A stretch of DNA of 37,386 nt from a bacterium. Its GTDB lineage: Bacteria > Patescibacteriota > Microgenomatia > UBA8517. The stretch spans positions 1 to 37,386 of the forward strand of contig JAJYIG010000006.1 of NCBI GenBank assembly GCA_021790215.1, in the 5' to 3' direction. The notes under the pieces were generated by a model that was not told where the DNA came from, did not search any database, and was given only the letters and a program-made list of their open reading frames with translations. Position 1 is the stretch's first letter. Each line of letters opens with the position of its first letter. The translations under genes and the position numbers were made by a program. Shown one piece after another: positions 13,279 through 33,046 of the stretch.

Positions 13279-13833
13279 TTAAAGTTGCAGCAAATCTGTC
13301 TTCTTTTTCTCCCCCATCTCTTCAATATCTTTTATATACCCATCAGTAATTTCCTGCAACTTTTTCTCTTCAGCGTACTTCTCGTCCTCAGTTATAACTT
13401 TTTCTTCAAATTTCTTTTTTATTTCATGCATCTCATCACCTCTAACTTGCCTGATCATCACCTTCCCATTCTCCAATTTTGCCGAGAGAAGCTTAACATA
13501 CTTTTCCCTATCTTCGGTTGTAAGAGGAGATATTATAATGCGGATTATTTCACCATCTATTGAAGGGTTTAGTCCAATATTCGCCTCAACTATTCCTTTT
13601 CTGATATCCCCGATTATTGACTTATCCCAAGGATTAATAATTATTTGTGAAGGGTCAGGGGCGGTGATGCTCGATAGTTCCATTACTCTAAGTCTTTGGG
13701 TTCCACCATATGCAGGGCATACAATATTTTCGACCAACGAGGTGGTTGCCCGTCCTGTCCGAATTCCTCCGATATCCGATGCCACAGTATCTACTACCGA
13801 CTGCATCTTTACCCGAACTGAAGATTCATCCAT
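13279..13833 (-). CDS. frr: Ribosome recycling factor
   Basis: Splits post-termination ribosomes together with EF-G. The 184-residue length is normal. The DIGGIRTGRATTSLVENI start, the domain II strand region around SSITAPDPSQIIINPWD, and the long C-terminal helix with KIMIRQVRGDE-like sequence (VMIRQVRGDEMHEIKK) are characteristic. It is usually in the order rpsB-tsf-pyrH-frr; here tsf is 70 nt upstream and pyrH is missing. Confidence 0.97.
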   Translation of the reverse strand: MDESSVRVKMQSVVDTVASDIGGIRTGRATTSLVENIVCPAYGGTQRLRVMELSSITAPDPSQIIINPWDKSIIGDIRKGIVEANIGLNPSIDGEIIRIIISPLTTEDREKYVKLLSAKLENGKVMIRQVRGDEMHEIKKKFEEKVITEDEKYAEEKKLQEITDGYIKDIEEMGEKKKTDLLQL

Positions 13834-13903: not shown

Positions 13904-14359
13904 CTATTTTTCACCAAGCCCCATCCTCTCAACCCGACCAAGTCTGATATTCTCGCCGGTTTTGGCAATGACTTCTTTGATAAGATCAGAAACTTTCTTG
14001 GAAGAATCCCTAATAAACTCCTGCTTCTCAAAATTTTCGTCTCCCATTGAAGCTGCCTGCATAGAAAGATCCTTTCCAAGTGTCTCAAAAAGATCGTTTC
14101 TGGCAACAAAGTCTGTTTCGCAAAGAAGTTCAACTATTCCCACAACTTTACCTGTGTGGTGCGCGTAAACAAAAATTTTACCTTCTGAAGTTTCGCGACC
14201 TTCGCTCTTTGAGGCTTTTTCCAAACCCTCTTTTTTCAGAATCTCAAGAGCTTTTTTTTCGTCTCCACCAACCTCTTCCAAAATTTCACGGATTCTGATA
14301 ATCGCAACACCAGTTTCCTCACGAAGTTTTTTTATCTGTACTATATCTATCTTTGCCAT
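13904..14359 (-). CDS. tsf: Elongation factor Ts (short form)
   Basis: Nucleotide-exchange factor for EF-Tu. The protein begins MAKIDIVQIKKLREETGV (UBA-like N-domain) and carries the signature CETDFVARNDLF. The 151-residue length is about half that of E. coli EF-Ts, because the second half of the core and the coiled-coil/C-terminal modules are missing. The frame is open up to 14443, but that part overlaps rpsB and the ATG at 14359 matches the family; it lies one base after the rpsB stop codon, so translation is coupled to rpsB. Confidence 0.94.
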   Translation of the reverse strand: MAKIDIVQIKKLREETGVAIIRIREILEEVGGDEKKALEILKKEGLEKASKSEGRETSEGKIFVYAHHTGKVVGIVELLCETDFVARNDLFETLGKDLSMQAASMGDENFEKQEFIRDSSKKVSDLIKEVIAKTGENIRLGRVERMGLGEK

Positions 14360-14360
14360 A

Positions 14361-15086
14361 CTATTTCTCTTTAGCCTTAACGCTTTTAGCCTGTTTCTTG
14401 GGGGAAGAGATTTTCTTTCCTGCAGATATAGCTTCTTTAACAAGGTTCAAAACATACTCAACAGCAGCCTTGGCATCATCGTTCATGGGAATCGGATAAT
14501 CAATCAGGTCCGGGTCTGCATTAGTATCAACTATACCTATCACAGGAATTTTCCTCTCGTTTGCTTCATGAACTGCGCCAGCTTCTCTTTTGGTATCGAC
14601 AATAAAAACAATATCCGGGATCTTACTCAGAGTTTTGATACCTTCAAAAAATCTTTCAAGTCTTGTAATTTCTCTATCAATAAGAAGTCTTTCTCTCTTT
14701 GTATATTTATCATAAGCTCCGCTAGCCATATTGGCCTTCATTTCTTCCATTTTCTTAACGGATTTCAACATCTGGCCAAAATTAGAAATCGTTCCGCCAA
14801 GCCATCTTTCATTAACATACGGCACTCCAACCTCTTGGGCCACCTCCGCTACCTTATCTTTAATTTGTTTCTTAGTTCCCAAAAGGAGCACAACTTTACC
14901 TTCTTTTACAGACTTTGTAATAAATTCCAATGCGGATTCAAGGAGGGGCTTTGTTTTAGTTAGATCAAAGACATGAACGCCGTTTTCCACCCCATAAATA
15001 TATTCCTCCATTTTGGGGTTCCAACGTCTGGTTTGGTGGCCAAAATGAGCACCGGTATCGATCATTTCTTCAAGTGAGATTTTCAT
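14361..15086 (-). CDS. rpsB: Ribosomal protein uS2
   Basis: Small-subunit protein of 241 aa, with the typical GAHFGHQTRRWNPKM start, VLLLGTKKQIKDKV, NERWLGGTISN and the C-terminal PVIGIVDTNADPDLIDYPIP. The tail is basic (KKISSPKKQAKSVKAKEK). A good Shine-Dalgarno AGGAG lies 11 nt before the ATG. It is the first gene of the rpsB-tsf-frr unit and has a 100-nt structured leader, described separately. Confidence 0.98.
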   Translation of the reverse strand: MKISLEEMIDTGAHFGHQTRRWNPKMEEYIYGVENGVHVFDLTKTKPLLESALEFITKSVKEGKVVLLLGTKKQIKDKVAEVAQEVGVPYVNERWLGGTISNFGQMLKSVKKMEEMKANMASGAYDKYTKRERLLIDREITRLERFFEGIKTLSKIPDIVFIVDTKREAGAVHEANERKIPVIGIVDTNADPDLIDYPIPMNDDAKAAVEYVLNLVKEAISAGKKISSPKKQAKSVKAKEK

Positions 15087-15186
15087 ATATTTTTTGTCTC
15101 CTTAAACCGCCATCAGTCGGAAGTTATAACCCTGAGCGACTACTGCGAGTCGAACGGGATTCCAGGAGACCTGACTGATGTGTGTA
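15087..15186 (-). promoter_or_regulatory. Structured rpsB leader RNA with a possible Shine-Dalgarno-masking pseudoknot
   Basis: On the minus-strand RNA, 5' CATCAGTC (15180-15173) pairs perfectly with GACTGATG (15118-15111). Inside this stem lie GGAA/TTCC, CCC/GGG and CGACT/AGTCG hairpin pairs. Just after the first arm, GTCTCCT (15170-15164) is perfectly complementary to AGGAGAC (15102-15096), which contains the rpsB Shine-Dalgarno. The two helices cross, so together they form a pseudoknot, or they compete. By analogy with known S2 (rpsB) leaders this could be a site where S2 represses its own translation. The pairing is seen directly; the function is inference. Confidence 0.65.
15130..15158. 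repeat. REP-like hairpin inside the rpsB leader
   Basis: CCC-tgag-CGACT / AGTCG-aac-GGG forms a hairpin with a 6-nt loop. The same pattern (CCT-gag-CGACT / AGTCG-a-AGG) occurs before fmt at 33017-33046. Palindromes of the type CCTGAGCGA...TCGAAGG are widespread interspersed repeats in bacterial genomes. Here the repeat may have been taken into the leader structure. Confidence 0.5.
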
Positions 15187-15192
15187 ACTGGT

Positions 15193-15221
15193 ATTGTACC
15201 AAGGCCGGAGGATTTACGCAA
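15193..15221 (-). promoter_or_regulatory. Putative rpsB promoter
   Basis: On the minus strand a TACAAT -10 box (15198-15193) lies 17 nt from TTGCGT (15221-15216), a half-match to the -35 consensus. The predicted start near 15186 puts the first arm of the leader stem within about 6 nt of the RNA 5' end. The promoter overlaps the end of folC, so the rpsB unit can be expressed separately from folC. Confidence 0.5.
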
Positions 15222-33016: not shown

Positions 33017-33046
33017 ATCCTGAGCGACTAAAAGGAGTCGAAGGAT
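33017..33046. repeat. REP-like hairpin upstream of fmt
   Basis: ATCCT-gag-CGACT, a 6-nt loop, then AGTCG-a-AGGAT form a near-perfect hairpin between def and fmt. The pattern matches the hairpin at 15130-15158. It ends 13 nt before the fmt start and could affect translation, but may simply be an interspersed repeat. Confidence 0.6.

Follow-up and report, generated by a model that had tools for sequence, protein, structure and literature searches.

Does the leader of rpsB, the gene for ribosomal protein S2, hide its own Shine-Dalgarno (SD) sequence in a pseudoknot in a member of the Patescibacteriota, and, if so, is this leader of a new type or a form of one already known? We addressed this question for a window, the whole stretch of DNA analysed, of 37,386 nt from contig JAJYIG010000006.1 (assembly GCA_021790215.1; Patescibacteriota; Microgenomatia; UBA8517), the nearest named genomes being those of Candidatus Woesebacteria (Microgenomates). 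The minus strand of the window encodes S2 (rpsB, 14361-15086, 241 aa; PF00318, 268.9 bits), followed by tsf (13904-14443, minus strand) and then frr (13279-13833), the latter two identified by PF00889 and PF01765. The EF_TS Pfam model covers only the first 75 of its 204 positions at 13904-14443, so that EF-Ts looks short in this lineage.

Read 5′ to 3′ on the minus strand, the leader starts with a conserved CACA (15181-15184), which occupies columns 1-4 of the alignment of relatives described below (A1), column 1 covarying with column 49, and corresponds to the structure line of the Rfam rpsB motif RF01815. As in the RF01815 drawing, both C15184 and C15182 may form pairs with G of the GNG linker, A15181 being bulged. 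There follow the 5′ arm of helix P1, CAUCAGUC (DNA CATCAGTC, 15180-15173), the dinucleotide AG and the 5′ arm of helix B, GUCUCCU (DNA GTCTCCT, 15164-15170), which is the anti-SD arm. Two short motifs conserved in the A1 columns, UGGA (15161-15164) after B and CUUCC (15119-15123) before the returning arm of P1, can pair with one another to form a very short P3. The P1 3′ arm, GACUGAUG (DNA GACTGATG, 15118-15111), is then followed by the linker GCGGUUUA (15103-15110; consensus GNGGNNNA) and by helix B′, AGGAGAC (15096-15102), which contains the rpsB SD sequence AGGAG and ends 9 nt before the ATG. All four arms of P1 (8 bp) and B (7 bp) were assigned from the sequence and from relatives, and their order, A-B-A′-B′, makes a true crossing, that is, an H-type pseudoknot. 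The initial annotation had drawn the same two helices from the window; on the minus-strand reading its coordinates, pairings and crossing are right.

A -10 box, TACAAT (15193-15198, minus strand), lies upstream of P1, and its spacing to P1 is repeated in relatives: the best TAnnnT hexamer begins 17-18 nt ahead of P1 in 18 of 31 leaders of the order. It is preceded, across a 17-nt spacer, by a -35-like hexamer, TTGCGT (15216-15221, minus strand), that is weak by consensus and was not reported by the consensus promoter scan. Given the -10 box at 17-18 nt before P1, the transcript should begin at CACA, with a predicted start near 15186-15185, which agrees with the earlier proposal that transcription starts some 6 nt ahead of the first arm. 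As a scan of the window leader found no terminator-like site in the stretch from P1′ to rpsB, transcription attenuation was ruled out.

Taken from the window alone, the crossing pair of helices is only moderately unlikely and thus no more than suggestive: the best such pair scores 38, a value that 17 of 3000 dinucleotide shuffles also attained. Minimum free energy folding of the leader was not unusual (z -0.94), because the folding program cannot represent a pseudoknot, and it was set aside as uninformative for this structure.

We therefore compared the leader with those of relatives, as the initial annotation had proposed. A protein search located rpsB in 53 of the 57 genomes of the order. 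Most of the upstream regions keep one order of elements, namely the -10 box, (A)CACA, P1, 0-3 nt, B, a short variable loop, P1′, the GNGGNNNA linker and B′, which is the SD, with P1 ranging from 8 to 12 bp and B, ending in CU, from 6 to 9 bp. At the sequence level the SD lies within B′ in nearly all leaders, and the linker is 8 nt long in 43 of 56. When 22 compact leaders of the order, originally picked by a stem search, were aligned with MAFFT without structure (A1), 98.7% of cells were paired (100% in P1, 97% in B). Pairing fell to 77.2% when columns were shuffled and to 40-50% in controls in which the 3′ partners had been slid by 1-3 columns. Double-sided changes were found in 12 of the 14 base pairs; helix B, for example, appears as GUCUCCU/AGGAGAC, GUUUCCU/AGGAAAC and GCUUUCU/AGAAAGC. 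In the lower extension of P1, C3-G47 is invariant, C1-G49 covary and A4 is conserved, and the middle A2/N48 position forms no standard pair in most leaders from the Candidate Phyla Radiation (CPR).

Because the rows of A1 had been selected by a stem search, two further tests were applied. One was a home-made phylogeny-aware null, in which substitutions were redistributed randomly over a FastTree tree. Against it, the structure pairs made up eight of the top nine among all column pairs, the remaining one being columns 1/49, the lower P1 extension that is also drawn in RF01815. Three P1 pairs reached E≤0.05, and the best B pairs were individually marginal (0.08, 0.25 and 0.7). The other test used a covariance model, R1, that knows P1 only and from whose training the window was left out; it served to choose 31 leaders outside its training set without reference to helix B. 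In 30 of these 31 leaders, L196 being the exception, helix B covers the SD position with 5 bp or more. The mean score with each leader's own tail was 17.7, compared to 13.4 with swapped tails, and none of 10,000 tail-swap permutations reached the observed mean. Taken together, these comparisons of sequences show that the rpsB leader fold is a real, conserved and covarying pseudoknot that sequesters the SD. Extra hairpins are inserted into the linker, after GNGG and ahead of the SD arm, in L018, L037, L187, L193 and L028, and the pseudoknot pairing appears to be kept in L018 and L037.

Among the upstream regions of the order that were read, several from Woesebacteria contain no such leader at all. 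In five of these (L019, L020, L041, L046 and L049) a -10-like box lies about 10-20 nt from the rpsB start codon, which suggests that the rpsB mRNA may be leaderless where the S2 leader has been lost.

The model R1 recovered the window leader with 50.8 bits (E=2e-11). A second match in the window, at 1103-1157 (14.9 bits), was rejected as chance, and six weak matches in genomes (L147-L152, E 0.03-0.09) were rejected as not being at rpsB. A sequence-only model, R2, yielded 13 matches, and structure contributes much of the score. A strict descriptor of the form CA-P1-B-P1′-GNGG-B′ was satisfied by 31 of 49 rpsB upstream regions from the order, one of which (L051) looks like chance, by 16 of 29 from the class and by 9 of 29 from the sample of the phylum, compared to 1-3% of shuffles; several of the regions that fail it carry variants, such as hairpins in the linker. 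Within the class and phylum loci, 31 of the 33 model matches at E≤1 sit just upstream of rpsB. Whole-genome scans of the phylum gave 10/380 and 9/380 genomes, counts that are lower bounds, since the filters were strict and direct reading of rpsB upstream regions gives far more; all nine whole-genome matches of the broader model (E≤0.1) are at rpsB, with the S2 reading frames checked. The descriptor counts and the position of the model matches thus indicate an element that is rpsB-specific and common in Microgenomates and that also occurs elsewhere in Patescibacteria.

GGA and CUUCC, contiguous or nearly so in relatives, are separated by 37 nt in the window leader. This insert, AUCCCGUUCGACUCGCAGUAGUCGCUCAGGGUUAUAA (15124-15160, minus strand), lies in the P3 loop, outside the core, and was delimited by repeat comparison and folding. 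It folds as a hairpin, in which AAUCC/GGGUU and CGACU/AGUCG can be drawn, and it belongs to a dispersed palindrome family, TTCGACT..GCTCAGG, with a second copy in the window at 33018-33042 and two good copies in the genome. A close pattern is dispersed in 27 of the 57 genomes of the order and a reversed control pattern in none; a similar insert, one copy of the palindrome, is found in the leader L013. The three short inner helices that the initial annotation had fitted into the first stem can indeed be drawn in the window, yet they are not conserved and are part of this inserted palindrome. The predicted core fold is left intact by insertion into the P3 loop. As a REP-like dispersed repeat, CCTTCGACTNNGCTCAGG is present in many Woesebacteria genomes, and two or three rpsB leaders have it inserted in their P3 loop.

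How the leader relates to known rpsB leaders was examined with the Rfam models and with our own. RF01815 aligned to the window leader along its entire length and in the correct register, at 17.7 bits against a gathering cut-off of 40 (E 0.11 in a 171-base search), and RF00127 (t44) gave no match in the window, the Rfam gathering scan being silent. None of 20 related leaders matched RF01815 even at E≤5, nor did any of the 57 order genomes in a whole-genome scan. This silence is weak evidence rather than evidence of absence, because the model also misses most controls: it rings in only one of 14 control genomes, below its cut-off, and Escherichia coli is not among them. Sub-threshold Rfam matches to MIR5298, CRISPR-DR42, sR52, SNORD43 and Atu_C9 were discarded as chance. 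In a cross-phylum test on 64 named, mostly non-CPR loci of about 3 kb each, searched on both strands, the first ten matches of a model built from CPR leaders only (E 0.024-0.81) were all located immediately upstream of rpsB and on the correct strand, in marine Alphaproteobacteria, Rickettsiales, Legionellales (Legionella) and Clostridia. The first eight matches of the broader CPR model were likewise upstream of rpsB (best E 0.003). Gamma- and alphaproteobacterial loci, some of them among those matched, carry RF00127 or RF01815 at rpsB. Direct reading of a marine alphaproteobacterial leader (L114), GCA[CACAGAAA]..CCGGU..[UUUCUGUG]GAGGUUUA{ACCGG}AGA, finds the linker and register of the CPR leaders, and both are likewise common to a leader from Legionellales (L060).

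What would such a leader do? The rpsB-tsf mRNA of E. coli is repressed by its own product S2, which acts via the 5′ UTR (Aseev et al. 2008, reviewed in PMC10931766) and needs S1 as its partner (PMC10931766). The mechanism has been described as unclear because the ribosome-binding site is reported to lie outside the operator (PMC10931766), whereas in the CPR leader it lies inside the pseudoknot. The two systems would have in common a conserved 5′ UTR structure of the gene's own operon as the target of S2. With the SD outside the E. coli operator and with S1 required there, the E. coli mechanism need not transfer to CPR; and since the SD is itself one arm of the conserved helix, the simplest mechanism would be its capture, stabilised by S2. 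We propose that, over its first ~100 nt, the rpsB-tsf mRNA folds as a compact H-type pseudoknot, in which P1 (8-12 bp) encloses the anti-SD arm of B and the other arm of B is the SD itself. S2 in excess of its uptake into 30S assembly would bind the core formed by P1 and CACA-GNGG, possibly together with S1, and stabilise the pseudoknot; the SD would then be held in a helix of 6-9 bp and translation of rpsB-tsf would stop. When S2 is scarce, the helix would open and ribosomes would initiate. The likely protein-binding surface is the conserved unpaired core, comprising CACA with its bulged A, GNGG and UGGA/CUUCC. The gene context and homology point to S2 as the putative ligand, and repression would probably act by occlusion of the SD. 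The explanation as a whole, an SD-capturing pseudoknot leader that acts as an S2 autorepressor, is one that we consider probable, and on this point the earlier proposal of S2 autoregulation is still the best reading.

An unlikely alternative is that the leader is a genuine regulatory element responding to something other than free S2, such as S1, EF-Ts, an assembly intermediate or ribosome availability, or that it is a fixed brake with no ligand at all. The SD is fully paired, which would permit a ligand-free brake, and the need for S1 in E. coli finds an echo here in a 361-aa S1-like protein encoded in the genome (L220, G000:C17:1126-2130), so that an S1 partner is possible. This protein spans only some four of the S1 domains in the rpsA model and, at 225 bits, falls short of the curated cut-off of 577. 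However, the conservation of the non-helical CACA, GNGG and UGGA/CUUCC points to a surface that is recognised, and this core is common to a leader known to answer to S2, both of which argue against this alternative.

The initial annotation had also suspected a distinct type of leader, and this part of its claim is not supported. In the published rpsB motif (RF01815; Meyer et al. 2009, PMC2704228), P1 is accompanied by variable P2 and P3, and a pseudoknot joins J2-3 to the 3′ extension that follows P1. The CPR leader has the same position upstream of rpsB, the same P1 with a lower CaC/GnG extension and bulged A, and the GNGGNNUAA linker, and its helix B is that same J2-3 pseudoknot; the CPR layout CACA-P1-B-P1′-GNGGNNUA-B′ is the layout of the known rpsB leader. 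The differences are that the CPR form has no P2 (J 0-3 nt) and a tiny P3 with UGGA..CUUCC (2-3 bp, or expanded), and that its pseudoknot helix has 6-9 bp and contains the SD, compared to 3-5 bp; very short or absent P2 and P3 are permitted in the published motif (PMC2704228). With t44 (RF00127), a gammaproteobacterial rpsB leader annotated as an sRNA, whose probable start site is in common with rpsB-tsf (PMC9788540), the CPR leader shares the CACACAC-P1-...-GUGGAGGCUUAAC core and the position at rpsB; t44 differs in its longer multi-stem loop and in a pseudoknot partner, ACCC, that adjoins rather than surrounds the SD. The alphaproteobacterial leaders (Nisaea, L070, and the marine L114) have CA-P1-GAGGNNUA-ACCGG, and in Nisaea helix B, CUCCGGU/ACCGGAG, likewise covers the SD GGAG; these leaders differ in a CCGGU-type pseudoknot of 5-7 bp and, in some, a long P2/P3.

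Such likeness might have arisen by convergence of a CPR leader of independent origin on the RF01815/t44 architecture, which would make it a distinct class of S2 leader. Neither RF01815 nor RF00127 detects it at gathering or at useful E-values, and its P3 region, UGGA..CUUCC, is unlike the GUGCU-type loop of Proteobacteria. Nevertheless, we regard convergence as quite unlikely, for the element order, the 8-nt linker and the CACA with bulged A are all identical, the matches of the CPR-only model fall precisely on rpsB leaders in some five independent lineages, and the silence of RF01815 means little for a model that fails in E. coli and most control genomes. We conclude that CPR and known rpsB leaders probably descend from one ancestor or, failing that, follow the same design. 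Judged by its sequence, the CPR leader falls within the known class of rpsB leaders as a compact and divergent variant and is not a new type; as it fails the formal Rfam threshold, it is filed as a variant rather than as a member of RF01815. A single core is common to the t44 and rpsB 'sRNA' families, each of which is located in the 5′ leader of rpsB, and a joint clan or a re-curated model for RF00127 and RF01815 seems warranted.

That the two helices reflect functionless chance complementarity, as the shuffles of the window by themselves would still allow, is refuted by the compensatory changes that many genera show in each of the two helices, together with the swap and slide controls, and we give it practically no credence.

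Feedback control by S2 has so far been described for Proteobacteria, Cyanobacteria and Firmicutes, and our literature searches found no description of an S2 feedback leader in the CPR. If S2 has the role proposed here, its feedback control would extend into the CPR, where Rfam is blind, and the rpsB and t44 families, filed separately in Rfam, have one core in common with the CPR leaders. An SD inside a compact pseudoknot would offer a simple, testable mechanism, where that of the E. coli counterpart is described as unclear (PMC10931766). The broader idea, on which we are evenly balanced, is that a minimal S2-responsive pseudoknot of ~55-60 nt without inserts may represent the ancestral or a pared-down rpsB leader across Patescibacteria, one that would tolerate palindrome insertion into its P3 loop and act by direct capture of the SD, a mode not established for the proteobacterial versions.
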